In this document: positions 1,364-62,240 of the stretch, piece by piece
Layout: the number at the start of each line of letters is the position of its first letter
Position numbering within the stretch: position 1 is the first letter of the stretch
From: Herbihabitans rhizosphaerae
Lineage (GTDB): Bacteria > Actinomycetota > Actinomycetes > Mycobacteriales > Pseudonocardiaceae
Assembly (NCBI RefSeq): GCF_004216555.1
Contig: NZ_SGWQ01000006.1
Location: 62,001 to 126,000, forward strand
DNA: 64,000 nucleotides
Direction of reading: 5' to 3'
Program-made: the position numbers and the translations under genes
Notes under the pieces: model-generated
What the model was told of the DNA's origin: nothing
Database searches by the model: none
What the model saw: only the letters and a program-made list of their open reading frames with translations

Positions 1364-2608
1364 TCATTCACCCAGCGATCCCGTGTACAGCAACAGGTTC
1401 GGCGTGCCGGGCAACGTCCAGCCGATCTTGTCCTTGGTCGCACTGTCCACCAGTGCGCGCCGCACGTCCTCCGGCGAGGCGTCGGGATTGCGGGCCAGGT
1501 ACAGCGCCGCGGCACCGGCCACGTGCGGCGCCGCCATCGACGTGCCGCTCATCGGCCCGCTGCTCCGGTCGTCGGCGAAAGTCGAGGACACGATGTCGGT
1601 GCCGGGCGCGATGATGTCGACGCAGTCGCCCCACTGGCTCTCCGCCGAGCGGTGATCCTTCTGGTTGGAGTTGGCGACCGTGATCGCCTCGCGCACGTTG
1701 GCCGGGTAGAACGTGCACGCCGGCACGTAGAAGTTGCCGGCGGCGATCGTGTAGGTGATGCCGGAGGCGATCGAGCGGCGCACCGCGTTCTCCAGGGCCG
1801 GCGAGCTGCCCGGGTAGCCGAGGCTCATGTTCACCACGGCCGGGCGCTTGGCGTTGGCCGTCACCCAGTCCACCCCGGCCAGCACCGAGTCGCTGGCGAC
1901 CAGGGTCACGCCGCAGCTCTGCACGCGGACCGACACGATCCGCGCGGCGGGGGCCACGCCGAAGGTCTTGCCGGCCACCGTGCCGGCGACGTGCGTGCCG
2001 TGCCCGCAGGCGTCGCTCGCGTCCGGGTCGTTGTCCACGAAGTCCCAGCCGGACGTGGCGCGGCCCTCGAACTCCTCGTGGGTGAGCCGCACGCCGGAGT
2101 CCAGGATGTACGCGGTGACACCGGCACCGCCGTCGCGCGGCCGGGCGGAGTCGCCGTCCAGCGGAAGATCGCGCTGGTTGACCCGGTCGAGGCCCCAACT
2201 CGACACGGCGGACCTGGTCGCCTGTCGCGCGGGTGCGGGCTGGGACGTGGGCTGGGGCGCCTTGACCGTGCGCACCGCCTCGACCGAGGACACCGCGGAG
2301 TCCGCGGCCAGGCGCTTGGCCTGGGTCTCCGCCATCCGCGCGGAGAACCCGCGAATCGTCGCGCGGTACCGGTTCTCGACCGTGGCGCCGTACTTCGCGG
2401 CGAGCCGGTCGACGGCGTCGGCCGCGGTGTCCTTCAACACGACGACGTACCGCCCGGCGACCGCGCCCTCCGCGCCAGCGTTGACAATGGCCCCCTCGGC
2501 GGGAGCGGCGGGCTCGGCGGTGGCGAGCGTGCCACCGATCACGGCCGTCGTGGCGAGCATCGCGGCGCCGGCCAACCACAGCGCGCGACGAGCTGTCTTG
2601 CGGTTCAT
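1364..2608 (-). CDS. secreted S8 family serine peptidase (subtilase, proteinase K-like)
   Basis: 414 residues from the ATG at 2608. A signal peptide (residues 1-31) precedes an inhibitor-I9-type propeptide (about 52-115, YVVVLKDT, GFSARMAE). The mature catalytic domain follows, with Asp170 (YILDSGV), His203 (CGHGTHVAGT), oxyanion Asn292 (IAAGN) and Ser357 (MSGTSMAAPHVAG). Length and motifs match the proteinase K/aqualysin group of secreted proteases that cleave off their own propeptide. The ATG at 2608 is preferred over the in-frame GTG at 2638 because the signal peptide starts properly there and a TANNNT box lies 7 nt upstream. An inverted repeat TGAAC-N6-GTTCA overlaps the promoter, suggesting repressor control shared with an acylase gene at 28317. 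Confidence 0.92.
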   Translation of the reverse strand: MNRKTARRALWLAGAAMLATTAVIGGTLATAEPAAPAEGAIVNAGAEGAVAGRYVVVLKDTAADAVDRLAAKYGATVENRYRATIRGFSARMAETQAKRLAADSAVSSVEAVRTVKAPQPTSQPAPARQATRSAVSSWGLDRVNQRDLPLDGDSARPRDGGAGVTAYILDSGVRLTHEEFEGRATSGWDFVDNDPDASDACGHGTHVAGTVAGKTFGVAPAARIVSVRVQSCGVTLVASDSVLAGVDWVTANAKRPAVVNMSLGYPGSSPALENAVRRSIASGITYTIAAGNFYVPACTFYPANVREAITVANSNQKDHRSAESQWGDCVDIIAPGTDIVSSTFADDRSSGPMSGTSMAAPHVAGAAALYLARNPDASPEDVRRALVDSATKDKIGWTLPGTPNLLLYTGSLGE

Positions 2609-2615
2609 GCCGCGG

Positions 2616-2645
2616 AGCCTACCAGTTGATGAACGCACATGTTCA
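2616..2645 (-). promoter_or_regulatory. leaderless promoter with TGAAC-N6-GTTCA operator
   Basis: On the minus strand, TAGGCT (2616-2621) lies 7 nt before the ATG at 2608. An inverted repeat TGAAC-N6-GTTCA occupies 2630-2645, starting 22 nt upstream of the ATG. The same repeat at the same distance precedes the acylase gene starting at 28317. Confidence 0.55.
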
Positions 2646-2705: not shown

Positions 2706-3671
2706 ATGGTTGCCCCTCCGACGGCGTCGGGGCTCACGCCCGAGTTCGCCGACGTCACCCGTGACGAGTCGAGCCTGCGCCGTTTCCTGCACGGGCTGCC
2801 CGGAGTCGATCAGGTGGGCGTGGAACAACGCGCGGCCGGCCTCGGCACCCGCAGCATCAAGAAGGCCAGCAAGCTCTGGGCGATCGACACCGCCATCTCC
2901 ATGGTCGACCTGACCACGCTCGAGGGCGCCGACACGGTCGGCAAGGTCCGCTCGCTGTGCGCCAAGGCGCGCCGGCCGGACCCGGACCGCCCGGAGGTGC
3001 CGAAGGCCGCCGCCGTCTGCGTCTACCCCGACCTGGTGGAGACCGCGGTCAGGGCACTGGCGGGCAGCGGCGTGGGCGTGGCGAGCGTGGCCACCGCGTT
3101 CCCCAGCGGACGGTCCAGCATGCGGGTCAAGATCGCCGACACGGAGCTGGCCGTGGCGGCCGGTGCGTCCGAGGTGGACATGGTGATCGACCGGGGCGCC
3201 TTCCTGTCCGGGCGCTACGGGCAGGTGTTCGACGAGATCGCCACGATCAAGCACGCCTGCGGGGACGCGCACTTGAAGGTGATCCTGGAGACCGGCGAGC
3301 TGGCCACCTACGACAACGTGCGGCGCGCGTCCTGGCTGGGCTTACTGGCCGGCGGTGACTTCATCAAGACCTCGACCGGCAAGGTGTCGCCGGCCGCGAC
3401 GCTGCCCGTCACGCACGTGATGCTGCAGGCCGTGCGCGACTGGCACGACTCGACCGGCGAGCTGCGCGGCGTGAAACCCGCCGGCGGCATCCGGACGACC
3501 AAGGACGCGATCCGCTATCTGGTCGCCGTGCACGAGGTCGCCGGCCCGGAATGGCTGTCCCCCGAGCTTTTCCGGTTCGGCGCGTCCAGCCTCCTCAACG
3601 ACCTGCTGATGCAGCGGCGCACCCAACTGGACGGCCACTACAGCGGCCCCGACTACGTGACGGTGGACTGA
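2706..3671 (+). CDS. deoC: deoxyribose-phosphate aldolase
   Basis: Cleaves 2-deoxyribose-5-phosphate to glyceraldehyde-3-phosphate and acetaldehyde in the cytosol, the last step of deoxynucleoside catabolism. The 321-residue protein is the long actinobacterial form. The class I aldolase fold shows the expected motifs: KVILETGEL with a catalytic lysine, FIKTSTGK with the Schiff-base lysine, and GVKPAGGIRT with the phosphate-binding loop and third lysine. The ATG at 2706 follows a leaderless -10 box. The stop overlaps the next start by one base, so it is translationally coupled to an aldehyde dehydrogenase that could oxidise its acetaldehyde product (inference). Thymidine phosphorylase, cytidine and adenosine deaminases occur elsewhere in the window. 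Confidence 0.95.
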   Translation: MVAPPTASGLTPEFADVTRDESSLRRFLHGLPGVDQVGVEQRAAGLGTRSIKKASKLWAIDTAISMVDLTTLEGADTVGKVRSLCAKARRPDPDRPEVPKAAAVCVYPDLVETAVRALAGSGVGVASVATAFPSGRSSMRVKIADTELAVAAGASEVDMVIDRGAFLSGRYGQVFDEIATIKHACGDAHLKVILETGELATYDNVRRASWLGLLAGGDFIKTSTGKVSPAATLPVTHVMLQAVRDWHDSTGELRGVKPAGGIRTTKDAIRYLVAVHEVAGPEWLSPELFRFGASSLLNDLLMQRRTQLDGHYSGPDYVTVD

Positions 3672-5104: not shown

Positions 5105-5963
5105 CCGTATGTCGGTCTTGAAGACCTACAAACTCTTCATCGGGGGCGCCTTTCCCCGCTCGGAGTCCGGCCGCTCGTACCCGGTGAACGATCACCGGGG
5201 CAACTTCCTGGCCAACGCGGCGCAGGCGTCCCGCAAGGACGTGCGCGAGGCGGTAACCGCCGCACGCAAGGCTTTTCCTGGTTGGTCGGGCGCCACCGCG
5301 TACAACCGGGGGCAGGTGCTCTACCGGGTCGCCGAGCTGCTGGAGGGCCGGCGCGAGCAGTTCATCGCCGAGGTCGCCGCGAGCGAGGGCGTCCAGGCCA
5401 AACGCGCACAGTCCATTGTGGACGGTGCGATCGACAGGTGGGTCTGGTACGCCGGGTGGACCGACAAGCTGGCCATGGTGTTCGGCTCCAGCAACCCGGT
5501 CGCCGGCCCGTACTTCAACTTCACCATGCCGGAGCCGACCGGCGTGGCCGGCGTGCTGGCCCCGCAGCAGTCCTCGCTGCTCGGGTTGGTCAGCGTGCTC
5601 GCGCCGGTGATCGCCACCGGCAGCACGGCCGTCGTGGTGTCCAGCCTGGACCGCCCGCTGCCGGCGATCACGCTGTCGGAGGTGCTCGCCACGTCGGACG
5701 TGCCGGGCGGCGTGGTCAACATCCTGACCGGGCGCGCGGCCGAGTTGGGGCCGTGGCTGGCGTCGCACGCGGACGTGAACGCGATCGACCTGACCGGCGC
5801 GCCCGAGTCGATGCGCGCGGACCTGGAGCGGGCCGCGGCCGGCACGGTCAAGCGGGTACTGCGCGCGCCGTCGTCGGAGCCGGACTGGACGAGGGCGCCG
5901 GACATTTCTCGGTTGAAGCGGTACCTGGAGCACAAGACCGTGTGGCATCCTGTGGGCGTGTGA
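5097..5963 (+). CDS. half-length aldehyde dehydrogenase family protein lacking the active site
   Basis: 288 residues from the ATG at 5097, which overlaps the preceding ALDH by 8 bases. It covers only the first part of the ALDH fold: KLFIGGAFPRSESGRSY at the N-terminus, then VAGVLAPQQSSLLGLVSVLA where active enzymes have the PWNFP segment, and PGGVVNILTG. The region carrying the catalytic Glu and Cys is absent. The protein ends cleanly about 130 residues after the PWNFP-equivalent, with no remnant of the missing half downstream. It is well kept, so it is more likely a partner subunit or regulator of the active ALDH than a decaying gene (inference). Confidence 0.85.
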   Translation: MSDRMSVLKTYKLFIGGAFPRSESGRSYPVNDHRGNFLANAAQASRKDVREAVTAARKAFPGWSGATAYNRGQVLYRVAELLEGRREQFIAEVAASEGVQAKRAQSIVDGAIDRWVWYAGWTDKLAMVFGSSNPVAGPYFNFTMPEPTGVAGVLAPQQSSLLGLVSVLAPVIATGSTAVVVSSLDRPLPAITLSEVLATSDVPGGVVNILTGRAAELGPWLASHADVNAIDLTGAPESMRADLERAAAGTVKRVLRAPSSEPDWTRAPDISRLKRYLEHKTVWHPVGV

Positions 5964-5998
5964 ACACCCGTGTTCTCCATTCACCCACAGGCGGACCG

Positions 5999-6325
5999 AT
6001 GGAACCAATACAGGGCTTCGACGTCGACACCTCGGCGCTGACCGGCTACTCCAGGAGTGTCACCCCGCTGGCCGACGAGCTGAGCGCCGCGGCAGGCGAG
6101 CACCTCACCGGCTTCACCGAGGGCGCGTTCTCGCTGGTCGGCGTGCACTCCGGGTTCACCAGCCAGCTCGCGGCGGCGATCGAGCGGCACAACGCCGAGG
6201 TCACCGGGCACGCCTCGGCGATCGCCGGCATGGCGGCCGCAGTCGGGCAGACCGGCACGCACTACGACGTCCAGCAGGCCGGCCACAGCCAGACCTTCGG
6301 CGCGATCGGCGGTGAGCGCGCGTGA
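5999..6325 (+). CDS. EspC-like (DUF2580) type VII secretion-associated small helical protein
   Basis: 108 residues. The N-terminus GFDVDTSALTGYSRSVTPLA followed by two helical stretches (LAAAIERHNAEVTGHASAIA) matches the DUF2580/EspC group of ESX substrates and partners. No WXG motif is present. It starts at an ATG 36 nt after the ALDH stop. Its stop overlaps the GTG of the next gene by 4 nt. It is paralogous to the protein at 7895. Secretion is inferred from family; no ESX ATPase or membrane core gene lies in the window. Confidence 0.75.
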   Translation: MEPIQGFDVDTSALTGYSRSVTPLADELSAAAGEHLTGFTEGAFSLVGVHSGFTSQLAAAIERHNAEVTGHASAIAGMAAAVGQTGTHYDVQQAGHSQTFGAIGGERA

Positions 6326-7320
6326 CCTCCCCGATCATTCCGCTGGTCGAGGCGCTCGGGCAGGCCGCCGTCACCGCGTCGCGGCAGTTGCTCACCAACG
6401 ACGACGCGATCGACACGCTCGGCGCGGCCCAGCGCCAGGTGCGGGACACCGTGTCCCGCGTGGCCACCGACGTCGGCAACCAGACCGCCGGGCTCGCCCA
6501 GATGTGGACCGGCCAGGCCAGCGGCCGCCAGCAGACCGACGGCGCCGCGCTGGACGGAATCGCGCGGCAGCTCACGGCCAACAGCACGACGATCCAGGGC
6601 GCGATCGGCCAGGGCTTCGAGATCCTCAAGGGCGCGCAGGTCACCAACGTCGCGGACTTCGAGACGTTCAAGCAGCGCGCGGTCAACATCCTGATGGCGG
6701 CGCAGGCGGCGGCGTTCACCAATCCGTTCGGCGCCGCGATGAAGCTCGGCGAGCTGATCACGCTCGGCGGGGAGCTGGCCGGCAAGGTGTCCGGCAACCT
6801 GCGGGGCACCGTGCAGCAGCTCACCGGCGTGGGCCAGAAGCTGCTCGGCGACCTCGGCATGGGTGGCACCACACCGCAGCAGAACGGCTCCCCCGGCACC
6901 CCGCCCGAGGCGTACAACGGCGCGCCGCAGAACAACGCGCCACCGCCCAGCGGAGCCGGCGCGCAGGCCGTGGAGAACGCCAAGAAGTTGCTCGGCATGC
7001 CGTACGTGTGGGGCGGCAAGGACCCGAACCGCGACGGCGGCGTGGACTGCAGCGGCCTGGTCACCTGGGCGTACGGGCAGGCCGGCGTGGACGTGCCCGG
7101 CCCGGCGCAGAGTCAGGACATCGGCACACAGGTGAGCAAGGAGGACCTGCAGCCGGGCGACCTGCTCGTCTGGGAGGGTGGCGAGGCCGGCGGTCACGTG
7201 GCGATCTACGCCGGCGACGGGCAGCTCATCGAGGCCGGCGATCCGGTGCAGATGGGCCCGCTGCGGGAGACCAACATGGCCGGCCAGACCTTCCGCGGCT
7301 ACTGGCGGCCCACGGCGTAG
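6322..7320 (+). CDS. NlpC/P60 family peptidoglycan hydrolase with ESX-like helical N-terminus
   Basis: 332 residues. Residues 1-190 are helical and Ala/Gln-rich (AAQRQVRDTVSRVATDVGNQ) like WXG/PPE-type secretion domains. A Pro/Asn/Gly-rich linker (about 185-215) leads to a C-terminal NlpC/P60 domain (about 220-332) with catalytic Cys in VDCSGLVTWAYG, His in GGHVAIYAGDG and the third polar residue region LIEAGDPVQMG. There is no Sec signal peptide, which fits type VII export together with the overlapping upstream EspC-like gene. Such enzymes cut D-Glu-mDAP or related peptide links in the wall. Start GTG at 6322, overlapping the previous stop. Confidence 0.85.
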   Translation: MTSPIIPLVEALGQAAVTASRQLLTNDDAIDTLGAAQRQVRDTVSRVATDVGNQTAGLAQMWTGQASGRQQTDGAALDGIARQLTANSTTIQGAIGQGFEILKGAQVTNVADFETFKQRAVNILMAAQAAAFTNPFGAAMKLGELITLGGELAGKVSGNLRGTVQQLTGVGQKLLGDLGMGGTTPQQNGSPGTPPEAYNGAPQNNAPPPSGAGAQAVENAKKLLGMPYVWGGKDPNRDGGVDCSGLVTWAYGQAGVDVPGPAQSQDIGTQVSKEDLQPGDLLVWEGGEAGGHVAIYAGDGQLIEAGDPVQMGPLRETNMAGQTFRGYWRPTA

Positions 7321-7381
7321 CCATGTCCGAGAACCCCGAACGCCGGCGGATTTTGCCCGAGCTGTCGGACACGGCGTAGCC
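7311..7381 (+). repeat. 12-bp direct repeat flanking a micro-ORF
   Basis: CACGGCGTAGCC occurs at 7311-7322 and 7370-7381. Each copy includes a TAG stop codon: the first ends the NlpC/P60 gene, the second ends the 18-codon ORF. This looks like a small local duplication. Confidence 0.5.
7323..7379 (+). CDS. possible 18-residue leader or remnant ORF
   Basis: ATG at 7323 opens an 18-codon frame (MSENPERRRILPELSDTA) between the NlpC/P60 gene and the YbaB-like gene. No convincing ribosome site precedes it, but it starts two bases after a stop, so reinitiation is possible. It may be only a by-product of the 12-bp repeat. Confidence 0.25.
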   Translation: MSENPERRRILPELSDTA

Positions 7382-7385
7382 GGCC

Positions 7386-7793
7386 ATGGAGATCGACATC
7401 ACGCGGGAGAGCGCCGCGGTCGCCGAACGGGTCGAGCGGGTCACCGACACCGTGCGGGAACGCATGGATCAGGCCGGCCCGCTCGCCGGCTCGGCCAAGT
7501 CGCCCGACGGCACGATCTCGGTGACCGTGGCGCCCGGCGGCCTGATCACCGGGATCACGCTCACCGAAGCGGCACTGGCGGGCGGCTCCACCGAGCTGGC
7601 GCGCAACATCAGCAAGCTCGTCGAACGGGCGACCAGGCGTGCCGGTGACGCCGTGTACCGCGCGCTCGCCCCCGCGCTGCCCGCCGGCGCGCTCGGCGAG
7701 CTGGCGTCGCTCGGCTACGTCCGCTACGACGAGGACGACGGCGACGCCGGAGACGACTACCGGTCGCCGATCATTCCCCCTGACAAGGTGTAA
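7386..7793 (+). CDS. YbaB/EbfC-like (EspL-like) protein, first copy
   Basis: 135 residues. The pattern of an N-terminal helix (MEIDITRESAAVAERVERVT), a beta hairpin with SPDGTISVTVAPGGLITGI and a long helix (ELARNISKLVERATRRAGDA) is that of the YbaB/EbfC fold. In mycobacteria the ESX-1 accessory protein EspL belongs to this fold, and these proteins recur beside ESX substrates in actinomycetes. The C-terminus is acidic (YDEDDGDAGDD). It probably works as a cytosolic dimer that binds or chaperones the adjacent substrates; a DNA-binding role is the alternative. It is closely paralogous to the protein at 9345. Confidence 0.75.
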   Translation: MEIDITRESAAVAERVERVTDTVRERMDQAGPLAGSAKSPDGTISVTVAPGGLITGITLTEAALAGGSTELARNISKLVERATRRAGDAVYRALAPALPAGALGELASLGYVRYDEDDGDAGDDYRSPIIPPDKV

Positions 7794-7894
7794 CCGTTTT
7801 CCCACGGTGTGACCCGCGTTGTTCTAATCTTGTACCGGCGCGTGGGGATCCGATGGGGGCCGGTGTACGTCACACCCGGGTCAGGGAGGGACAC

Positions 7895-8239
7895 ATGAAC
7901 GATCCGCATCATCGGCGGCCGAGCAACCAAGGCTACGACGTCGACACCGATGCGCTCACCGACTACGCCAGGCGCACCAACCCCGTCTCCGACGAGGTGC
8001 GCGGCGCGGCCGGGATGACCGGAGCCGATTTCGACGACTACGCGTTCTCCAAGATCGGCAGCGAGGTCGGCCTGTCCTCGGCGCTGCGGGACGCCAACCA
8101 GCGCCAGCGCGACGACCTCGCCGGCCTGTCCACGAACATGGACAACATCGCGCAGGCCGTGCACAACACCGGCGTGAACTACACCGACCGCGAGGACCAG
8201 GGCCGCCAGGCGCTGCGCCGCGCCGCCAGGGAGGAATGA
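7895..8239 (+). CDS. EspC-like (DUF2580) protein, second copy
   Basis: 114 residues. The N-terminus GYDVDTDALTDYARRTNPVS aligns with the protein at 5999 (GFDVDTSALTGYSRSVTPLA), followed by the same two-helix layout and no WXG motif. The ATG at 7895 is preferred over an earlier in-frame ATG at 7853 because AGGGAGGG lies just upstream and the homologous start is there. The stop overlaps the following ATG (ATGA), so it is coupled to the second NlpC/P60 gene. The gap of about 100 bp after the previous stop probably holds a separate promoter. Confidence 0.75.
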   Translation: MNDPHHRRPSNQGYDVDTDALTDYARRTNPVSDEVRGAAGMTGADFDDYAFSKIGSEVGLSSALRDANQRQRDDLAGLSTNMDNIAQAVHNTGVNYTDREDQGRQALRRAAREE

Positions 8240-9333
8240 GCGTGGCACCGCCCAACGCAGGACCGGTGCTCGCGCCGCTCGTGGAGCCGGGCGCCACCGC
8301 CCAGACCCACCTGCGCACCGACAACGGTGGCATCAACGCCGTCAAGGACGCGCACGGCAACGTGGTGACCCGCCTCGACGGCACGCAACAGGTGGTCAAC
8401 ACCAACAACCAGAACGTCAACGCCAACTGGCAGGGCCAGGGCGCCGACCGGGCCGTCGGCGACCAGCAGTCGCAGGGCGGCCAGTTCCGCGACATCAGCA
8501 CGTACAGCACGCAGGTGCAGAGCGCGGTCCAGGAAGCGTCGGGCATCCTGCAGGTCGGCCAGAACACCAACCAGCAGGCGATCCACGACTTCATGAACCG
8601 GGCGGCGCCGATCATGGAGGCGGCGGCCGGCCTGCGCGCGGCGGGCAAGCACGCCGACGCCGCCGCGAAGCTGTCCGACCTGGCCAAGCTGGCCGACGAC
8701 TTCAACGGCCAGGTCAAGATCAACCTCAAGGACGTGCAGGGCCAGCTCACCGGCGTCGTCGACAAGATCAACGGTGCCGGCGGCAACCGGCCCAAGAGCG
8801 GTGGCGGCGGTACCCGCACGCCGTCCGCGTACACCCAGGGCGGCGGGGGCGGCCGGAGCGGTGGCAGCAGCGGGGGCGGAGGCGGCGCGGCGTCCAAGAA
8901 GCGCCTGCCGGCGGCGATCCCGATGCAGCCCGGCACCGGCGTGAAGGTCAACCTTCCGGACGGCAGCACGGTCGAGGCGCCGAACGAGACGGCCGCGAAG
9001 GCGGTGCGCGCGGCGCTCACCCAGCTCGGCGTGCCGTACGTGTGGGGCGGCACCTCTCCCGGTCAGGGTCTGGACTGCAGCGGTCTGACCCAGTACGCCT
9101 ACGGCGAGGGCGGCATGGACCTCCCGCGCACCTCGCGCGAGCAGGACATCGGCGCGGAGGTGCCGAACGCGGATTCCCTGCTGCCCGGCGATCTGGTGTG
9201 CTGGGAAGGCCATGTGGCCATGTACATCGGCAACGGGCAGATCGTCGAAGCGGGCGACCCGGTGCAGACCGGGCCGCTGCGCACGACGAACTCTGGTATG
9301 CCTTTCGTGGGCTTCTACCGCCCCACTGGCTGA
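8236..9333 (+). CDS. NlpC/P60 family hydrolase with ESX-like N-terminus, second copy
   Basis: 365 residues. The N-terminal 190 residues are helical and Gln/Asn-rich with an internal NW-Q segment (VNANWQGQGADRAVGDQQ) reminiscent of WXG proteins. A very glycine-rich linker (about 193-220) joins it to the NlpC/P60 domain (about 255-365) with Cys in LDCSGLTQYAYG and His in EGHVAMYIGNG. The domain ends in EAGDPVQTGPLR, almost as in the copy at 6322, while the N-terminal parts have diverged. There is no Sec signal. Probably exported by a type VII system encoded elsewhere. Confidence 0.85.
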   Translation: MSVAPPNAGPVLAPLVEPGATAQTHLRTDNGGINAVKDAHGNVVTRLDGTQQVVNTNNQNVNANWQGQGADRAVGDQQSQGGQFRDISTYSTQVQSAVQEASGILQVGQNTNQQAIHDFMNRAAPIMEAAAGLRAAGKHADAAAKLSDLAKLADDFNGQVKINLKDVQGQLTGVVDKINGAGGNRPKSGGGGTRTPSAYTQGGGGGRSGGSSGGGGGAASKKRLPAAIPMQPGTGVKVNLPDGSTVEAPNETAAKAVRAALTQLGVPYVWGGTSPGQGLDCSGLTQYAYGEGGMDLPRTSREQDIGAEVPNADSLLPGDLVCWEGHVAMYIGNGQIVEAGDPVQTGPLRTTNSGMPFVGFYRPTG

Positions 9334-9344
9334 CGGAGGAACAC

Positions 9345-9752
9345 GTGGAGATCGACATCGAGCGCGAGATCGCGGCGCTTGACGAGCGGATGGCCCGCGC
9401 GGGCGAGCGCGCCGAGCAGCGGGTCGCGTCGCTCGGCAAGCTGTCCGGCACGGCGTCCTCGCCGGACGGCACGATCACGGTCGAGGTGGAGCCGGGCGGG
9501 CTACTGTCCGACCTGCGCCTGTCCCCCGCCGCACTGGCCCAGGGCTCGGACTCGTTGGCGCGCAACATCACCGCGCTGGTCGACAAGGCGACCAAGCGGG
9601 CCGGCGGCGCGCTGCACAAGGCGCTCGCGCCGACGATGAGCCCGGAGGCGGTCCGCGAGATCGAGTCGCTCGGCTACGTGCCGTACGAGGACGACGAAGA
9701 GGACTTCGATCCGGACTACAGCTCCAATCCCTTTGGGGGTCGCATCCGATGA
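9345..9752 (+). CDS. YbaB/EbfC-like (EspL-like) protein, second copy
   Basis: 135 residues, the same length as the paralog at 7386 and alike throughout (MEIDIEREIAALDERMARAG; SPDGTITVEVEPGGLLSDL; LARNITALVDKATKRAGGAL). The GTG at 9345 is supported by GGAGGA 5 nt upstream. The stop overlaps the next start (ATGA at 9749). The C-terminus is acidic (YEDDEEDFDPDY). Role as for the first copy: probable cytosolic partner of the EspC/NlpC module. Confidence 0.75.
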   Translation: MEIDIEREIAALDERMARAGERAEQRVASLGKLSGTASSPDGTITVEVEPGGLLSDLRLSPAALAQGSDSLARNITALVDKATKRAGGALHKALAPTMSPEAVREIESLGYVPYEDDEEDFDPDYSSNPFGGRIR

Positions 9753-10327
9753 ACACAGCAGGGCGAAGCCCTTTCGATGAGAGGGCGGGGGCGGGGCAGA
9801 GGATGGTGATCGAGCGGGAGCCGCTGGAGCGCAGTACCGACCAGCTCATCGCCGACATGGACGCCCGGCGCGACGCGCTGGCCCAGGTGGAGCCGGTGCT
9901 CAAGAGCACCACCGGCACCGCGCACGATCCGCAGGGCACCGTGCAGATCACCGTTGACGGGCAAGGGAAACTGCTCAAGCTGTACATGCGCCCCGACGCG
10001 GTGAAGTGGGGCGCGGACACACTCGCCAAGCTGATCGTGGACGTGGCGCGAGTGGCCCACCAGGACGCCACGCAGAACGCGTACAACAAGCTCGGCCCGC
10101 TGCTCGGCGACAACCTCACCTACGCCATCGAGCAACTGTCGGGGCTGCGCGCGCCGGCTCGCCAGGAGACCGAGGGCGGCATCACCGCCGAGGAGTTCCA
10201 GGCGAGGCGCGACGAGCGGGTCCGGCACGAATCCCAAGGGACGCAACAGGTTTCCCCGTCGTCCGCGGCGGATGACGACTACGACCTGGACACCTTCGAC
10301 GCCTCGATGCTCCGGTCGGACCGGTAG
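9749..10327 (+). CDS. third YbaB/EbfC-like protein with acidic tail
   Basis: 192 residues, the last gene of the type VII-like cluster. The YbaB-like core spans about 30-125 (DARRDALAQVEPVLKSTTGT, DPQGTVQITVDGQGKLLKLY, WGADTLAKLIVDVARVAHQD). It is more distant from the other two copies and has a longer charged C-terminus ending in YDLDTFDASMLRSDR. ATGA overlap with the previous gene. The stop lies three bases from the end of a convergent serine hydrolase gene. Confidence 0.7.
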   Translation: MNTAGRSPFDERAGAGQRMVIEREPLERSTDQLIADMDARRDALAQVEPVLKSTTGTAHDPQGTVQITVDGQGKLLKLYMRPDAVKWGADTLAKLIVDVARVAHQDATQNAYNKLGPLLGDNLTYAIEQLSGLRAPARQETEGGITAEEFQARRDERVRHESQGTQQVSPSSAADDDYDLDTFDASMLRSDR

Positions 10328-22713: not shown

Positions 22714-22756
22714 CCTTGCTAGTGTGGAGACGGCAACCACACGGGAAGGGAGCGCG

Positions 22757-23392
22757 ATGGCACCGCCGGGACGACCGCGCGGCTTCGACCGCGACGCGGT
22801 ACTCGACGCGGCGATGCGGCTGTTCTGGCAGCACGGCTACGAGGGCACGTCGATCAGCGACCTCACCGAGACGACGGGCATCGGCACGCGCAGCCTGTAC
22901 GCCGCGTTCGGCTCGAAGGAGGAGCTCTTCCGGGAGGCGGTGACGCTGTACAACAGTGCGAGCGTGATCAGCTGCGGTGCGCTCGACGAGGAGCCGACCG
23001 CACGTGCGGCGATCGAGACGCTGTTACGCGCCAACGCCGATGCCTACGCGGATCCGACGACACCGCGCGGCTGCATGATCGTCCTCGGCGCGGCGACCGG
23101 CACGCCGGAGAACGAGCCCGTCCGGCGGTTCCTCGCCGACTGCCGCGACGCCGACCGCACGGCGGTGTCCGCCCGGCTCGAACGCGCGGTGGGCGACGGC
23201 GATCTGCCGCCGGACGCGGACACCGAGGCGATCGCGACGTTCTACCTGACCGTCCTGCACGGCCTGTCGATCGGCGCCCGCGACGGCGGCACCCGCGAGG
23301 CCATGCACCAAGTCATCGACATGGCGATGTGCGGGTGGGACGGCGTGGTGTCGCAACGGCGACGCTCAGCCCGCCCAGCCCGAAGCCGGTGA
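22757..23392 (+). CDS. TetR family transcriptional regulator
   Basis: 211 residues from the ATG at 22757, preceded by AAGGGA; an in-frame GTG at 22724 would add 11 residues. The N-terminal helix-turn-helix (about 10-55) reads FDRDAVLDAAMRLFWQHGYE then TGIGTRSLYAAFGSKEELF, typical of TetR proteins. The ligand domain carries CMIVLGAATGTPENEPVRRF, seen in the AcrR/TetR subgroup that often controls adjacent oxidoreductases. Divergent from the SDR-SMR-deoA set, so likely its local repressor. Ligand unknown. Confidence 0.9.
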   Translation: MAPPGRPRGFDRDAVLDAAMRLFWQHGYEGTSISDLTETTGIGTRSLYAAFGSKEELFREAVTLYNSASVISCGALDEEPTARAAIETLLRANADAYADPTTPRGCMIVLGAATGTPENEPVRRFLADCRDADRTAVSARLERAVGDGDLPPDADTEAIATFYLTVLHGLSIGARDGGTREAMHQVIDMAMCGWDGVVSQRRRSARPARSR

Positions 23393-23402
23393 GGAGTTCT
23401 CG

Positions 23403-25805
23403 TCAGTCGAGCACCGTGGTGGTCAGCGCCGGCGAGGCGTCGATCTCCGCGTCGGTGAACCGTGGTGTCACCCATCCGCCGGACGAGTACAGCTTGGTCT
23501 GGTCGGAGAAGTGCGGCGAGGTCGGGTCGGAGGACTGCGAGTACGTCAACACTGTCGACACCTTCGGCGCGCCCCGCCCGAACTGGATCACCTGGATGTA
23601 GGACGACCCGTGCGGCACCTCCACGTAGCCGCGCTTCGGGTCCCAGGTCGCCGTGATCACGTTCAGCACGCCGAGCTGCCCCGGCCCGCCGTGGATCGGG
23701 ATGCGCTCGCCGTTGCGCGTCACGGTCTGCCCCTGCGCGAGCGGCGCGTCCAGCGCCAGCCCGGCGGCGAGCACCTCGGCCGCCGCGTTGCCGAACGCCA
23801 GCGCCACCTCGGGCTTGTCCGCGGCCAGCGTGTTCGGCGTGTGCACCGGATTGCGCGGGTCGAACGGCACCTTCCACGGCCCGCCGGGCACCCGGCCGAG
23901 CTGCGCCCAGAACCGTTGGAACAGCAGGGATCCACGGCTGTCGTTGGTGTACCCGTGCTGCCACGACGCGAGCGCGGGACACGCCGCGCGCACGTCGACC
24001 GGGCCGGAGGAGGACGGCGCCTTGCCGTCCGGGAACGCGGCACACATCTTCGCCGTGTCGGCCGCGGTCAGCTCGGCGTTGCGGCTGTGGTCGGAGAACA
24101 GCACGGCGCGCATCGACTCGTTGCTGAACCCGCGCCCCGGCAGCCCGTCGGTACCGGTGATCCGCCGCTGGGTCGCGATGATGCTCTCCTGCGTGCGGGT
24201 CGAGCGCTGCTCCAGGGTGTCGCCGAACACGCGCGGGTAGCTCAGCGGCCGGGCCGGGTTGGCCAGCCACGGGCTGTCGTTGGCGTTGGTGACGAAGTCC
24301 TTGCGGGTCAACGACGGCATGCGGGACGGCCCGAGCAACCCGGGCTCCAGCGCCTCGCCGTCGGTGCCCCACTGGCAGGCGCTCCGGCCACCGTCCAAAA
24401 TGGACAGTCCGTCGGAGGCGAAGGTCTCCTTGCCGAGCGGGGTGCCGCACGTGGCGGCGTGCTCGTCGGTCACGTGCGGGACGACCTGCGAGTCGGTGTA
24501 CAGCGCGTTGCCGTCGCGGTCGGAGGCGATCGTGTTCACCCACGGGATGCCCTGGCCGCGGCGCAGCACGTCGCGCAGACCGGCCGTGTCGCGCGCCTTG
24601 GCGAAGCCGAACCAGGTGTTCAGCGCGCGCAGGTTCCCGGCGTTGGCGTCGCGCATCACGTGCGCGGTCTGGCCCCACGGCAGATCGATGCCCTCGACCT
24701 CGTTGGTCACCGGGCCGTAGCGGGTTGACCAGAGGGTGCGCTCCACGGTGCCGATCGAGCCGTCGTCGTTGCGCACCTGGACGGCGACCCGCTGCGAGGT
24801 CATGTCCTCCGGCTTGCCGTCCACCAGGTATTGGGTCGGCTTCCCGGGTGTCAGCGGCACCTCGAACAGGCCGAACGGGATCACGGTGGACACGGTGTGG
24901 CTCCACGCCACGCGGTCGGTGTGCCCGATGTTGATCGCCGGCATGCCGATCAGACCGGCGCCGGAGACGTCGATCTCGCCGGGGATGGTGAGGTGGCTCT
25001 GCCAGAAGCGGCGCGAGCCGTGCCACGGGAAGTGCGGGTTGCCGAGCAGCACGCTGCGGCCGTCGGTCACGCCCTGCGAGCCGACGGCGATCGCGTTGCT
25101 GCCGATGTCGGCCGGGCCCTTGCCGGCGCCGAGCGCGGCGGACAGGCGGCGCGCGGTGTCCGGTGCGGGGGCGCTCACCGGGGTGGCCGGCGGCTGCGCG
25201 TTGACCTCGCCGTCGACGCTGCCACCGGAGCCGGCGCCGACCACGACCGAGTACACGTGCCGGTACACGTCGAGGTCGGTGATCGGGCGCACCCACTCCT
25301 GGCCCTTGCAGCGCGGGTCGGTGATCGCGCCGCCGTGCTCGGCGAGGTACTTGTTGTATCCCTTGGCGTATCCGCGAACCACGTCGCGCACCCGCGGCTC
25401 GGGGCCGTTGGGGGCCGGCTGGTCGACCAGGCGCTCGACGACACGGCTGTCGTTGATCCGCTGGAAGTGCAGGTCGCTGTTCAGGCTGGTGGTGGAGCCG
25501 CCGAGACCGGGGCTCACCGGAGCGTTCGGGCCGAGATAGCGGGACCGCTGCCCGCTGACCGTGAGATAGCTGTCGGCGAGCAGGCAGACGTTGTCCTTGG
25601 CGGAGGCGAAACCGAGGCCTTCGCCGAGCCCGCCGTAGTCGCGCGCGGTGATGTGCGGGATGCCGTACTCGGTGTACCGGATCTTCACCTTCGGCGACCC
25701 GGCCGCCGCGGGTTCGGCGGTGGCCGGGGTGTTGGCCACGGCGATCGCCGTGGCGACGGCCGCGATCGCACCTACCGCTCCGGTGATCTTGATCGCGCGT
25801 CTCAT
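23403..25805 (-). CDS. secreted penicillin acylase family N-terminal nucleophile hydrolase, copy 1
   Basis: 800 residues from the ATG at 25805, which has AGGGGAGGA upstream. A signal peptide (about 1-31) precedes the alpha chain, then a linker (about 195-235) and the beta chain beginning at Ser236 in ADIGSNAIAVGSQ, the autocatalytic cleavage point and nucleophile of this Ntn family. ARDYGGLGEGLGFASAKDN, GNPHFPWHGSRRFWQSHLTI and INIGHTDRVAWSHTVS are family hallmarks. Actinobacterial relatives include aculeacin A acylase and acyl-homoserine-lactone acylases, so cleavage of lipopeptides or signalling amides is plausible. It lies just downstream of a paralog of the same orientation. Confidence 0.9.
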   Translation of the reverse strand: MRRAIKITGAVGAIAAVATAIAVANTPATAEPAAAGSPKVKIRYTEYGIPHITARDYGGLGEGLGFASAKDNVCLLADSYLTVSGQRSRYLGPNAPVSPGLGGSTTSLNSDLHFQRINDSRVVERLVDQPAPNGPEPRVRDVVRGYAKGYNKYLAEHGGAITDPRCKGQEWVRPITDLDVYRHVYSVVVGAGSGGSVDGEVNAQPPATPVSAPAPDTARRLSAALGAGKGPADIGSNAIAVGSQGVTDGRSVLLGNPHFPWHGSRRFWQSHLTIPGEIDVSGAGLIGMPAINIGHTDRVAWSHTVSTVIPFGLFEVPLTPGKPTQYLVDGKPEDMTSQRVAVQVRNDDGSIGTVERTLWSTRYGPVTNEVEGIDLPWGQTAHVMRDANAGNLRALNTWFGFAKARDTAGLRDVLRRGQGIPWVNTIASDRDGNALYTDSQVVPHVTDEHAATCGTPLGKETFASDGLSILDGGRSACQWGTDGEALEPGLLGPSRMPSLTRKDFVTNANDSPWLANPARPLSYPRVFGDTLEQRSTRTQESIIATQRRITGTDGLPGRGFSNESMRAVLFSDHSRNAELTAADTAKMCAAFPDGKAPSSSGPVDVRAACPALASWQHGYTNDSRGSLLFQRFWAQLGRVPGGPWKVPFDPRNPVHTPNTLAADKPEVALAFGNAAAEVLAAGLALDAPLAQGQTVTRNGERIPIHGGPGQLGVLNVITATWDPKRGYVEVPHGSSYIQVIQFGRGAPKVSTVLTYSQSSDPTSPHFSDQTKLYSSGGWVTPRFTDAEIDASPALTTTVLD

Positions 25806-25825
25806 CGTCGCGTCCTCCCCTGAAT

Positions 25826-25868
25826 CACGTGGTGTGCACCCCGCCCCACACGGGGCACACACTACGTG
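25826..25868 (-). terminator. imperfect 17-bp hairpin between acylase genes
   Basis: Arms 25826-25842 and 25852-25868 pair at 14 of 17 positions. It begins directly after the upstream acylase stop (25870) and ends before the ribosome site of the second acylase, so it may be a terminator or attenuator separating the two. Confidence 0.5.
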
Positions 25869-25869
25869 A

Positions 25870-28317
25870 TCACCGGGACAGCGTGACCACGGTCAGCTCC
25901 GGCGAGGCGTTGATCTGCTCCTCGGTGAACCGCTCGGGAACCCACTTGCCGGCCGAGAACAGCTCGGTCTGGTCGGCGTAGTGCGGCGAGGTGGGGTCGG
26001 TCGACTGCGAGTAGGTGAGCACGGAGTGGGCCGAGGGCGCACCGTCACCGAAGTGCGTGACCTGGATGAACGACGAGCCGTGCCGGATCTCGGGGTAACC
26101 GGCCTTGGGGTCCCACAGCGGGGTGATCACGTTGAGCACGCCGAGCTGGCCCTGACCGCCGTGGATGGGGATGCGCTTGCCGTTGCGGGTGACCGACTGG
26201 CCGTCGGAAAGCGGTGCGGCCAACGGGATTCCGGCCGCGCGCAGGTCGTTGACCGCGTTGCCGAAGGCCAGCCACACGTCGGGCCGGTCGGTGGCGAGCT
26301 TGCGCGGGGTGTTGACCGGGTCCTTCGGGTCGAAGCCGTCCTTCCACGGTCCGGGAAGGCTCGCACCGGCGAACTTGATCAGCCCGATGTGCGTCCAGAA
26401 GCGTTGGAACAGAACGGATCCGCGGCTGTCGGCGCGGAACGAGCCGTCCCAGTTCTCCAGCACCGGGCAGGCTTCGCTCACGTTGATCAGCCCGCCGCTG
26501 AACGGTGCGAGGCCGCCGAGGAAGCCCTTGCACATGGCGACGGTGTCGGTGCGGGCGAGTTCGGCGTTGCGGCTGTCGTCGCGGAAGAGGACCTCGCGCA
26601 TGGTGTCGCCGTCGAAGCCCTTGCCGGGTAGGCCGTCGACGCCGGCGAGGCGGCGCTGGGCGGCGACGATGCTCTGCTGGGTGCGAGTGGAGCGGGCGGT
26701 GTTCATGTCACCCATGACACGGGGGTGGGACAGCGGTTCGGCGGGGTTGGCGAGCCAGGCGCTGTCGTTGGCGTTGGTGACGAAGTCCTTGCGGGTCAAC
26801 GAGGGCATGCGGGACGGGCCGAGCAGTCCGGGTTCGAGCGCGTCCGGGTCGTTGCCCCACTGACACGCGCCGCGGCCACCGTCCAAAATGGACAGTCCCT
26901 GCAGCGAGAAGGTGACCTTGCCGAGGAGCGTGTTGCAGGCGTTGGCCTTCTCGTCGGTGATGTGCGGGACGACCTGGATGTCGCCGTAGAAGGCGTTGCC
27001 CTTGCGGTCGGAGGCGATCGTGTTGACCCACGGGATGCCCTGGGTGCGGCGCAGCACGTCCTTGATCTCGCCGGTGTCGCGGGCCTTGGCGATGTTGAGC
27101 CAGGTGTTCATGCCGCGAAGGTTGGTGAGGTTCGCCTCGCGCACCGAATGGGCGGTGAGCGCCCACGGAAGGGGGATGGTGCCCATGATCGAGGTGGTGA
27201 CCGGGCCGTAGCGGGTGGACCAGATGGTGCGCTCGACCTTGCCCGTGGAGCCGTCCGCGTTGCGGACGTCGACCGAGACCTGTTGCGCGGTCATCGATTC
27301 GACCTTGCCGTCGACCAGGTACTTGGTCGGATCCCACGGCACGACGGGAACTTCGAAGAGCCCGAACGGCGCGACCGTGGCGACCGTGTGGGTCCACGCG
27401 ACGTCGTCGTTGTGCCCGATGTTGACGGCGGGCAGGCCGAGCAGGCTGGCGCCGCTGACGTTGAGCTTGCCGGGGATCGTGAGGTGGCTCTGCCACATGC
27501 GGTTCTTGCCGTGCCACGGAAAGTGCGGGTTGCCGAGCAGGACGCTCTTGCCGCCCGAGACGCCCTGCGATCCGGCGGCGATCCCGTTGGAGCCCATGCC
27601 CTCGTGCCGGTTGGACTGGATCGCGGAGGCGATGCGGCTGGCTGTGTCCTTGGCCGGCTTCGGTGCCGGTGCGTTGGCCGGCACGACAGCGGGTTTGGCC
27701 CCGACCACCCCGTCCAGGACGTAGTCGGTACTGCCCATGATCACGGTCATGTGGACGTGCCGGTACACGTCGATGTCGGAGATCGGGCGGACCCAGTCCT
27801 TACCCCGACAGGCGGGATCGGAGATGTTCCCGACGCCAGTCTCGGCCAGGTAGCGGTTGTACCCCTTGGCGTACCCGCGAACGACTTCCTTGACCTCGGG
27901 CTCGGGCCCCTGCGGCGCGGGCAGGTCCACGAGCCCCTCGACGATCTTGGCGTCCTTGAGGCGGGTGAAGTACAGATCGCTGTTGAGATTCGTGGTGGTC
28001 GCGCTCTGGCCGGGCGAGACCTGGCCGTCCGGGCCAAGGAACCGGGAGCGCTCACCATTGGCCGTGAGGTAGGTGTCGGCGAGCAAGCAGAGGTTGTCCT
28101 TGGCTACGGCGTACCCGTAGCCCTCGCCGAGGCCCGCGAAGTCCGACGCGGTGATGTGCGGGATGCCGAACTCGGTGTAGCGAATGGTGGCGGCCGCCGG
28201 TGCGGCCTCAGCGGTGTACTGCACGGCCACCGTGGTGGCCGTGGCCGCGACGGCCAGCACCGCCGCGCCTGCGACGGATGCTCGTAACCTCGTGCGGAAC
28301 CTGCGGGTGTGCGCCAT
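25870..28317 (-). CDS. secreted penicillin acylase family hydrolase, copy 2
   Basis: 815 residues from the ATG at 28317. A signal peptide (1-39) precedes the alpha chain; the beta-chain nucleophile is Ser243 in EGMGSNGIAAGSQ. It shares long stretches with the neighbour (GNPHFPWHG, RKDFVTNAND, YSQSTDPTSPH), so the pair is a tandem duplication. Even the DNA palindrome GTCCAAAATGGAC is kept at the same place in both. The linker before the nucleophile and the substrate-pocket regions differ, suggesting different acyl preferences. The start is chosen for the signal peptide and for a TANNNT box 6 nt upstream. A perfect operator-like inverted repeat overlaps the promoter. Confidence 0.9.
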   Translation of the reverse strand: MAHTRRFRTRLRASVAGAAVLAVAATATTVAVQYTAEAAPAAATIRYTEFGIPHITASDFAGLGEGYGYAVAKDNLCLLADTYLTANGERSRFLGPDGQVSPGQSATTTNLNSDLYFTRLKDAKIVEGLVDLPAPQGPEPEVKEVVRGYAKGYNRYLAETGVGNISDPACRGKDWVRPISDIDVYRHVHMTVIMGSTDYVLDGVVGAKPAVVPANAPAPKPAKDTASRIASAIQSNRHEGMGSNGIAAGSQGVSGGKSVLLGNPHFPWHGKNRMWQSHLTIPGKLNVSGASLLGLPAVNIGHNDDVAWTHTVATVAPFGLFEVPVVPWDPTKYLVDGKVESMTAQQVSVDVRNADGSTGKVERTIWSTRYGPVTTSIMGTIPLPWALTAHSVREANLTNLRGMNTWLNIAKARDTGEIKDVLRRTQGIPWVNTIASDRKGNAFYGDIQVVPHITDEKANACNTLLGKVTFSLQGLSILDGGRGACQWGNDPDALEPGLLGPSRMPSLTRKDFVTNANDSAWLANPAEPLSHPRVMGDMNTARSTRTQQSIVAAQRRLAGVDGLPGKGFDGDTMREVLFRDDSRNAELARTDTVAMCKGFLGGLAPFSGGLINVSEACPVLENWDGSFRADSRGSVLFQRFWTHIGLIKFAGASLPGPWKDGFDPKDPVNTPRKLATDRPDVWLAFGNAVNDLRAAGIPLAAPLSDGQSVTRNGKRIPIHGGQGQLGVLNVITPLWDPKAGYPEIRHGSSFIQVTHFGDGAPSAHSVLTYSQSTDPTSPHYADQTELFSAGKWVPERFTEEQINASPELTVVTLSR

Positions 28318-28323
28318 GGTGGC

Positions 28324-28356
28324 ATGGTAGCGCATCAATGAACAGTAGTGTTCATT
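28324..28356 (-). promoter_or_regulatory. leaderless promoter with perfect 8-bp-arm operator
   Basis: TACCAT (28324-28329) lies six bases before the ATG at 28317. The inverted repeat AATGAACA-N4-TGTTCATT (28337-28356) contains TGAAC-N6-GTTCA at 28339-28354, starting 22 nt upstream of the ATG exactly as for the subtilase gene. The form suits a TetR-type dimer. Confidence 0.6.
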
Positions 28357-28359
28357 TAG

Positions 28360-29430
28360 TCAGGCGGACATCCCGACGAGGTGCATGGTGTTGCGGATCG
28401 GCTTGCGCTGCGGATCAACCCACGCGGGCGGGATGTAGTAGGGAATCCCGTTGCGCATGATGATTTCCCAGTCTTGTTGGTGGATGGTGGTGTGGTGGTG
28501 TCGGCAGAGCAGTGTCATGAGTTCTGCTGAGGTTATTCCACCGTCGATCCACGGGATGATGTGGTGTGCGTCGGTCCACTCCGGCGGCCGATCGCACCCA
28601 GGGAATGAGCAGCCTTTGTCGCGTGCGATGAGCGCCGCCCGAATCGTTGCGGTGACGAGCCGTTGTTCGCGTCCCACGTCGAGTGGCTTGCCTTCACTGT
28701 TCAACACGATGGGCGTGATTCCGGCATCACACGCGATCTGCCGAATGGTTTGCGGTGTGATCAGCGCACCGAAGTCACCATGGCCGAGGCCGATTTGGTC
28801 GCGAAGTTGTTCGTAGGAAATCGTGATCGCGAGGTGCGGCCGCCGTCCACCGTCCTGCGGGAGTGTGTCGGAGTTGAGGATGCGGTGCGCCAACTCGATC
28901 AGCGCGTCGGCCCACCTGCGGGCGGCTGATCGGTCATCATCTTTGCCGGCGGGTTTCGCCAGCGGCGACAGGGCTGCTTTGAGAACTTCGGCACACTCGG
29001 GCGAGAGCCGCCCGCGCACGATGATCATCCCGTCGACGTCTTCAATCATGGAGAATTCCATGCGTTTCCATGCGGCTTGTTCGTCGAGCACGACTTGTTC
29101 GGGTTGCAGGTGAGCTCGGGTGCGGGTGGCGAGCTTGCCGAGTTTGACCGGGTCGAAGCGCTCGGCTTCCTCCACGAGAAGGTGTTCCACGTCGGCGTGA
29201 TGTTCGTCGGGAAGTGTGTCGATGGTGGTGCGCACGACCTGCACGTGGTCACGGCTGATCGCCCCAGCGGCGAGTGCCTTCGCCGCCACGGGTAGCTGTG
29301 CCTCGATGGGCTGCCCGGTCAACGTGGTCGACCCGAACAACGCGTTGGCGTCAGCTACTCGCCGTCGTGCGTCGGCGGGTGAGATCCGCACGGTGTCCCG
29401 CAGGAACGATGCCGTGGAGTAGGCGCCCAT
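28360..29430 (-). CDS. DUF222/HNH (13E12 repeat family) protein, 5' end broken
   Basis: 356 residues from an internal ATG at 29430. DUF222 (about 1-215) is followed by a C-terminal HNH-like domain (CSFPGCDRPPEWTDAHHIIP, LLCRHHHTTIH). The usual Asn of the motif is replaced: TSAELMTLLC where relatives have DNLVLLC. The frame extends upstream without ATG to a leaderless start ATG at 29547, but that start is followed by an in-frame TAA at codon 5 (29533-29535), so about 39 N-terminal residues may be lost. A second, more decayed copy lies at 61758, and both have the same 86-bp element upstream. The family matches mycobacterial REP13E12. Function unknown; possibly a nuclease of a repeat element. 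Confidence 0.8.
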   Translation of the reverse strand: MGAYSTASFLRDTVRISPADARRRVADANALFGSTTLTGQPIEAQLPVAAKALAAGAISRDHVQVVRTTIDTLPDEHHADVEHLLVEEAERFDPVKLGKLATRTRAHLQPEQVVLDEQAAWKRMEFSMIEDVDGMIIVRGRLSPECAEVLKAALSPLAKPAGKDDDRSAARRWADALIELAHRILNSDTLPQDGGRRPHLAITISYEQLRDQIGLGHGDFGALITPQTIRQIACDAGITPIVLNSEGKPLDVGREQRLVTATIRAALIARDKGCSFPGCDRPPEWTDAHHIIPWIDGGITSAELMTLLCRHHHTTIHQQDWEIIMRNGIPYYIPPAWVDPQRKPIRNTMHLVGMSA

Positions 29431-59652: not shown

Positions 59653-59674
59653 GGACTTTAGCGGGCTAAAGTCC
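59653..59674 (+). terminator. 10-bp-arm hairpin after amine oxidase gene
   Basis: GGACTTTAGC (59653-59662) and GCTAAAGTCC (59665-59674) are perfect inverted arms with a 2-nt centre, 7 nt after the stop at 59646. As the arms are AT-rich it could also be an operator. Confidence 0.5.
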
Positions 59675-61613: not shown

Positions 61614-61699
61614 GTGGCGGCGCGGAATTGTGCGGGAGGCCCTAACCGCAGGCGCTACGGGCAGGCTCCGCCTGCCTTTTGCCCGTACCGCGCCGCCAC
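61614..61699 (+). repeat. 86-bp palindromic element, copy 2
   Basis: Ends GTGGCGGCGC (61614-61623) and GCGCCGCCAC (61690-61699), with the inner hairpin GGCAGGC-N3-GCCTGCC. It is nearly identical to 29603-29688 in the other orientation and sits in the same position relative to a DUF222 gene. Confidence 0.8.
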
Positions 61700-61745
61700 A
61701 CTCTTTCTGCTTTTGATTCACCCCATAGTGGTGGACCTTTTTCGG

Positions 61746-61751
61746 TAGAAT
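61746..61751 (+). promoter_or_regulatory. leaderless -10 box TAGAAT of second DUF222 copy
   Basis: TAGAAT is followed by six bases and the ATG at 61758, exactly as in the copy at 29547. Confidence 0.5.
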
Positions 61752-61757
61752 ACAAGT

Positions 61758-62240
61758 ATGAGGGACAACAACTAATCGACGAGCTACGGGCTCGCGAAAT
61801 CCACATTCGACAACTCGAATATGAACGACTACAACTCGTCCACGAAATCCATGAGCAAGGCATCGCGAAAGAAATGGGCGCCTACTCCACAGCATCGTTC
61901 CTCCGTGACACCGTGCGGATCTCACCCGCCGACGCACGCAGGCGAGTAGCGGACGCCAACGCGTTGTTCGGGTCGACCACACTGACCGGCCAACCCATCG
62001 AAGCGCCGCTACCTGTGGCGGCACGAGCACTCGCCTCCGAGTCCATCAGCCGCGACCACGTGCAGGTTGTGCGCGCCACGATCGACAAACTCCCACCCGA
62101 GCATCACGCCGACGTGGAGCAACTCCTCGTGGACGAGGCCGAACGCTTCGACCCGGTCAAGCTGGCCACCCGGACACGGGCGCACCTGCAACCAGAACAA
62201 GTTGTCCTGGAAGAACAAGCCGCGCGCAAACGCATGGAAT
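61758..62240 (+). pseudogene. DUF222 (13E12 family) gene, truncated and frameshifted
   Basis: The ancestral ATG at 61758 is out of frame by one missing G relative to copy 1 and meets TAA after five codons. In the DUF222 frame the sequence LIDELRAREIHIRQLEYERL and MGAYSTASFLRDTVRISPAD continues. It closely matches copy 1, with a 9-bp in-frame deletion (KLGKLATRT reduced to KLATRT). At 62240 (after RKRMEF) homology stops and sequence of a membrane transporter begins. The HNH half is absent. Confidence 0.75.

Follow-up and report, generated by a model that had tools for sequence, protein, structure and literature searches.

A putative TetR-family operator common to a PvdQ-like acylase, a subtilase and an SDR-CMD operon in Herbihabitans rhizosphaerae

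Do two similar inverted repeats, lying at the same distance before two genes for probable exported hydrolases, mark the targets of one regulator, and if so, what else does that regulator control? We investigated this question in the window (the whole stretch of 64,000 nt of Herbihabitans rhizosphaerae DNA analysed here), in the remainder of the host genome and in related genomes. The exact motif TGAAC-N6-GTTCA occurs at two places only in the window, both on the minus strand: at 28339-28354 (window sequence TGAACAGTAGTGTTCA; gene strand TGAACACTACTGTTCA), before acylase copy 2, and at 2630-2645 (window sequence TGAACGCACATGTTCA; gene strand TGAACATGTGCGTTCA, with the left flank TCTGT before GAACA), before a subtilase gene. 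A preliminary description had reported both repeats at these positions, at equal distances from their genes, and its geometry was borne out in every particular. At both acylase copy 2 (ATG 28317) and the subtilase (ATG 2608), 21 nt separate the site from the ATG, so that each site starts 22 nt upstream of the start codon. The acylase arms extend, as described, to a perfect 8 bp (28337-28344 and 28349-28356, the whole spanning 28337-28356), and the inverted repeats measure 16 bp at both sites and 20 bp at the acylase, above the length of about 15 bp expected of a TetR-family operator. The TANNNT boxes noted 6-7 nt before the starts are also present, as TACCAT-N6-ATG for the acylase (28324-28329, minus strand) and TAGGCT-N7-ATG for the subtilase (2616-2621, minus strand). 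Leaderless promoters with a TANNNT box are an already described class, and both promoters look leaderless.

Acylase copy 2 (25870-28317, minus strand) encodes a PvdQ-like protein of the penicillin-amidase family with a probable signal peptide. It resembles PvdQ acylases in matching their model (NCBIfam NF051460) over nearly its whole length, but its score of 610 bits falls below the equivalog cut-off of 950, and we assign it to the wider Penicil_amidase family. Acylase copy 1 (23403-25805, minus strand) is 65% identical to copy 2 and lies 64 nt downstream of it, and the two probably share one operon. Between them, at 25824-25870, is a 20-nt inverted repeat (85% complementary, arms 7 nt apart) that may be an attenuator or else a processing hairpin. 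The preliminary description saw no obvious adjacent regulator gene, which we correct here: a TetR gene (22724-23392, plus strand) runs towards the acylase pair, with 10 nt separating their 3' ends, and diverges from an SDR/SMR pair. It is a positional candidate only, and we set it aside because the motif was absent from its own promoter in the window scan.

On its other side, the acylase operator adjoins a high-copy DUF222-HNH gene (28360-29430, minus strand), the palindrome starting 5 nt past the stop codon of that gene. This position, and the copy number of the gene, would suit a palindrome that is part of the DUF222-HNH gene or of its transcript end, an origin that is mostly refuted already and that we consider extremely improbable. 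The 3' flanks of 25 other copies or fragments diverge before the palindrome, the segment common to other copies stopping short of the operator, and the exact motif occurs at just three places in the genome; on these two grounds the element-end reading was rejected. In addition, no T-run follows the palindrome, and the subtilase has no such neighbour. The DUF222-HNH gene itself, which is probably mobile, gave 52 matches in the genome, of which 14 (28360-29430 included) are nearly full-length and at least 82% identical; many are fragments at contig ends, and a second copy lies in the window at 61679-62476 (other loci L199-L228).

The second gene encodes an S8 subtilase with an I9 propeptide and a probable signal peptide (1364-2608, minus strand), for which the nearest NCBIfam models are mycosins, matched below cut-off. 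Both acylase and subtilase are probably secreted, as judged from their N-termini rather than by a signal-peptide program. The subtilase site also lies 61-76 nt upstream of the ATG of a divergent DeoC/LacD-family aldolase gene (2706-3671, plus strand; TAGACT-N6-ATG), and the aldolase may therefore be affected as well. When one mismatch was allowed, the window contained three sites, whereas shuffled windows had a mean of 0.74 and reached three in 4 of 100 shuffles. The additional site (5961-5976, plus strand) is 22 nt before the ATG (5999) of a small gene that is followed by an NlpC/P60 gene. It overlaps the stop codon of an ALDH gene, lacks a TANNNT box at the right place and has a low flank score, and is probably not a regulon member; with the full matrix it comes 9th (flank score and matrix are explained below). 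The neighbouring stretch at 5999-10327, near the subtilase, contains two NlpC/P60 genes, an EspC-like gene (below cut-off) and YbaB-family genes, two above cut-off and one below.

Could the common position be explained by the promoters alone? The sigma-70 -35 consensus is TTGACA, with which TGAACA agrees in four of six letters, and TGAACA is found 19 nt (acylase) and 18 nt (subtilase) before the -10 boxes. That the arm is a mere sigma-70-type -35 hexamer is nonetheless very unlikely, as it accounts neither for the second arm and the flanks nor for the copies lying further upstream at C15:6635 and C15:6653 (see below).

We then considered how often such a pair would arise by chance within one genome, using the 6.63 Mb of the host assembly and local scans that covered 1.64 Mb (C6, C1 1-800k and C3 1-400k), later extended to 2.06 Mb including C15. 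The exact motif has three copies in the whole genome, the third of which (L001) was dropped as an operator, as it sits in a GC-rich terminator-like hairpin followed by TTTT. With one mismatch there are 101 copies genome-wide, against 23 for the reversed pattern. Two exact intergenic sites were found in 1.64 Mb, where 300 dyads made of the same letters average 0.22; at one mismatch, the motif is only 22nd of the 300 by intergenic count. The extended form GAACA-N4-TGTTC is among 11 of 2240 dyads (three A/T letters per arm) with at least four intergenic copies in 1.64 Mb, several of the others being repeats. Genome-wide this form is found at 8 places (control 0), several of which precede signal-peptide-like starts. 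We do not rely on these places as a secreted-protein regulon, because one (L113) is a coding start (ATGAAC...) and another (L114) lies between TetR-like and ABC-like genes.

A more direct count was provided by 324 AT-rich dyads located before starts in 1.64 Mb. They formed 148 pairs with a common word and spacer, and in 17 pairs both members are equally far from the start. As about 7% of random pairs fall within 64 kb (by arithmetic from contig sizes), chance should give about one equal-distance pair that close together in the 1.64 Mb. Of the 148 pairs, six lie within 64 kb, and in two of these, each with the acylase site as a member, the distances differ by no more than 1 nt. Thus, by in-genome counting the acylase-subtilase pair is marginal, and taken alone it is weak and not convincing.

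Nor was the site recovered at the homologous genes examined. We scanned 51 acylase loci (3 own, 29 from the same family and 19 from named genomes) over a stretch reaching from 350 nt upstream of the match start to 60 nt beyond it, allowing two mismatches. The same-family loci were the best matches, one per genome, with a further 55 of 200 genomes also having a match, and for several of the named genomes the match starts within the protein, which reduced the upstream DNA covered. None of the 48 non-own loci has the site, and among all 51 only acylase copy 2 does; the preliminary description had held that a lack of conservation at orthologous promoters would count against its proposal, and for the acylase this lack is what we found. 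A search of 200 family genomes at E<=1e-120 gave no close orthologue of the subtilase outside the own genome, and of 16 own paralogue loci two contain a two-mismatch match, neither of them rightly placed. Separately, we noted by eye a TCAGGG-N4-CCCTGA inverted repeat before four acylase homologues (L035, L039, L040 and L046), imperfect in L051 and in the own locus L006; homologues with this repeat may be under another regulator.

The operator does recur across genera, at genes of a different kind. We identified the layout of GAACA-N4-TGTTC, TANNNT box and start codon in 14 of 390 family genomes, with no match for the reversed-pattern control. Eight of the 14 matches, from four genera, precede either an SDR gene (L232, L233, L235, L236 and L238, with 62-70% identity to the own protein) or a CMD gene (L234, L241 and L242, 50-58%), the assignment being made by identity to own proteins that carry those Pfam domains. 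A divergent TetR gene is present at two of the eight loci (L233 and L236), and no TetR-like gene was seen at the other six within roughly 1.5 kb on each side. The remaining six matches are the acylase, an esterase, two near-identical promoters, whose protein has no Pfam match (L229 tested), and two sites before ORFs of 82 and 11 aa that are probably due to chance. The foreign sites follow an approximate extended consensus, read by eye as TYTRY-GAACA-N4-TGTTC-RC-N-GA, with longer symmetrical flanks.

The esterase also came up in a search for the perfect 18-bp palindrome, which occurs in two of 297 family genomes, the own genome and G189. In G189 the palindrome precedes an esterase gene (PF00756) with a probable signal peptide, and the spacing is exactly that of the acylase (TGTTCA-N9-TANNNT-N6-ATG), including the distance from -10 box to ATG. 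A class-wide search gave four of 394 genomes, own included; two of the other matches, from one genus (g71), lie within a called gene and the third has no called gene around it, and these were discarded.

The recurrence before SDR and CMD genes led to a prediction that was then tested in the host genome. The CMD protein of L234 has its sole match there at C15:7610 (58% identity), and the SDR of the same own operon is 62-70% identical to the foreign proteins. Upstream of the own SDR gene we identified three tandem variant sites (GAACATCGGCGTTC, GAACAGGTCCGTTC and GAACGGCGACGTTC). The proximal one, GAACGGCGACGTTC, lies 8 nt before TACTGT, itself 6 nt before the ATG, which is the same layout as above; the further upstream copies are at C15:6635 and C15:6653. 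The subtilase site shares the variant form GAACA-N4-CGTTC with the own SDR sites, and a 12-mer (CGTTCATCAACT) is common to the subtilase site and the second SDR site (C15:6653), these being the only two places with it in 2.06 Mb.

One gene beyond the CMD gene, with a C39-type peptidase gene between, is a TetR gene (C15:9042-9671) whose product has a TetR_N domain and is 51% and 54% identical to the TetR proteins of L236 and L233, respectively. Its promoter contains no GAACA-N4-TGTTC within two mismatches. A TetR gene therefore lies near an operator-bearing target at the SDR-CMD genes of L233, L236 and C15; this arrangement was not seen in the stretches covered at the other six foreign loci, nor for the acylase or the subtilase, and both hydrolase sites are far from the C15 candidate.

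How closely do the two hydrolase sites resemble these SDR-CMD operators? A matrix built from the eight foreign SDR/CMD sites, with none from the host genome, was scanned over 2.06 Mb (about 31% of the genome) and placed the acylase site first (30.7) and the subtilase site second (26.5), with the three C15 sites 6th, 14th and 15th. The training sites had been retrieved with a pattern derived from the acylase, so that the core part of this ranking is partly circular; the flanks, which the pattern left unconstrained, and the kind of downstream gene alone are free of circularity. When the ten flanking bases were scored alone, the subtilase site obtained 10.0, a score that 0.008% of 83,080 random intergenic positions attain, and the acylase site 5.1, which 0.29% of them attain. 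Among the 26 GAAC-N6-GTTC sites, the subtilase ranks first and the acylase fourth on flanks, the proximal C15 site being third and a site in a coding stretch (C3:385624) second, outscoring the acylase. At spacers of 4, 5, 7 and 8, none of 259 GAAC-Nx-GTTC sites reaches either score. Fourteen of the 26 sites, including the three at C15, are intergenic, whereas 11 permuted half-sites have 2 to 10 intergenic sites each. The site in third place by the matrix (TGAACACTACTGTTC; G000 C3:287998-288013, L094) repeats 15 bases of the acylase operator; it precedes a YbaB-family gene, from which an ABC-transporter-like gene diverges.

The position of the sites was assessed in the same way. Three places in 2.06 Mb have the full layout with exact arms (acylase, subtilase and the proximal C15 site), and the controls gave one (CGAA) among 11 permutations and one (GAAC, spacer 4) among four other spacers. 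With up to one core mismatch (GAACR-N4-YGTTC) there are five, namely the acylase, the subtilase, a lipase-like gene (C1:697144), the SDR-CMD operon and a TetR-like gene (C1:304656), against one in total for the 11 permuted half-sites, where sites with both arms exact were counted twice, which can only inflate the controls. C15 was sampled on account of the motif and is thus a biased member of these layout counts. The lipase-like gene, with a probable signal peptide, has the layout if it starts at a GTG, the called ATG being 46 nt from the site. The TetR-like gene, with a one-mismatch site and beside an MFS-transporter-like gene, is kept as a probable chance match. Three of the five genes (acylase, subtilase and lipase-like) look like exported hydrolases, as judged by eye. 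Overall, a site at the same place over predicted promoters is found at the acylase, the subtilase, the own SDR-CMD operon and the G189 esterase.

These results bear on the possibility that two unrelated short inverted repeats are alike in sequence and position by coincidence. The one equal-distance pair expected within 64 kb among the 324 dyads, the low rank at one mismatch and the lack of conservation among the acylase homologues examined would all accord with coincidence. It is at odds with the first and second ranks under a matrix drawn from unrelated genes of other genera, with the agreement of the flanks and with the identical layout before an esterase of another genus, and we regard it as unlikely; with the cross-genus evidence added, the pair becomes more convincing.

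The proposal of the preliminary description, of one regulator for a small extracellular-hydrolase regulon, is supported in part. A shared operator is supported by the foreign matrix and by the flanks, the protein that binds it being our inference. The acylase, the subtilase, the lipase-like gene and the foreign esterase partly bear out an extracellular-hydrolase regulon, but the recurrent target is an intracellular SDR-CMD operon. We favour, with moderate confidence, a TetR-family operator over leaderless-type promoters, with SDR-CMD as the core target, exported hydrolases as additions and the C15 TetR as the candidate regulator: the same site in the same spot before two hydrolases, and also before SDR-CMD genes with a TetR gene nearby, suggests that one switch protein probably controls all. 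The operator would cover about -37 to -22 of each promoter, over the -35 region and spacer, so that a bound dimer would block RNA polymerase, and a small ligand would lift the block; repression rather than activation is our presumption. Across the family, the recurrent target would be an SDR and/or CMD operon, with the TetR gene beside it in some genomes. In the host, the TetR at C15:9042-9671 would act on the same operator at the acylase pair and the subtilase, and perhaps at a weaker form of it before the lipase, so that exported hydrolases would be switched together with SDR-CMD.

It is also possible, if rather less probable, that the operator is real and shared but is bound by another regulator, either another TetR (for example that at 22724-23392) or a MarR-type protein, the likeness to the SDR-CMD operator then reflecting similar recognition helices. 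A TetR gene does adjoin the acylase pair, and GAACA-N4-TGTTC is also found between TetR-like and ABC-exporter-like genes (L114, judged by sequence rather than by family search). Yet the flanks of both hydrolase sites match the SDR-CMD operators, and the adjacent TetR promoter has no such site. Should the C15 TetR be the regulator, the acylase and a protease would be switched together, and the ligand of this TetR would signal the cell to secrete a PvdQ-like acylase. A bolder version, which we think doubtful, is that a TetR sensing an acylated signal or lipid couples SDR-CMD to secretion of the PvdQ-like acylase, the protease and perhaps the lipase, answering and dismantling the acyl signals of neighbours; its ligand part is speculation from the enzyme families.

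TetR operators of such a build are ordinary. KstR, KstR2, BkaR and Rv3066 are named as TetR-family proteins binding palindromes in one published account (PMC4482099). The putative operator described here resembles those of the TetR family in being a palindrome over a promoter, in having several targets and in the TetR gene near the recurrent target in some genomes, and differs in the leaderless-type promoters and in the probable exported hydrolases beside the SDR-CMD core. The actinobacterial LexA SOS box, CGAAC-N4-GTTCG, also has GAAC and GTTC arms, but their spacer here is 6 rather than 4, and no DNA repair gene is among those found downstream. The BioQ site of corynebacteria, TGAAC-N3-GTTAC, shares the TGAAC half-site and the TetR family, but here the spacer is 6 rather than 3 and the targets are others. 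A literature search by motif spelling, which could miss motifs shown only as logos and did not extend to most subscription papers, did not find the operator. The analysis gives a putative operator unrecorded in the papers searched, for which a specific regulator can be proposed and which occurs at three or more promoters of one genome, with cross-genus support.

Finally, the scans of 1.64 Mb additionally identified a different palindrome, TTAGC-N2-GCTAA, with 29 copies between called genes and none inside genes, one of them at 59658-59669 of the window. It is mostly embedded in ACTTTAGC-SS-GCTAAAGT, and is a REP-like or terminator-like repeat of the host genome.
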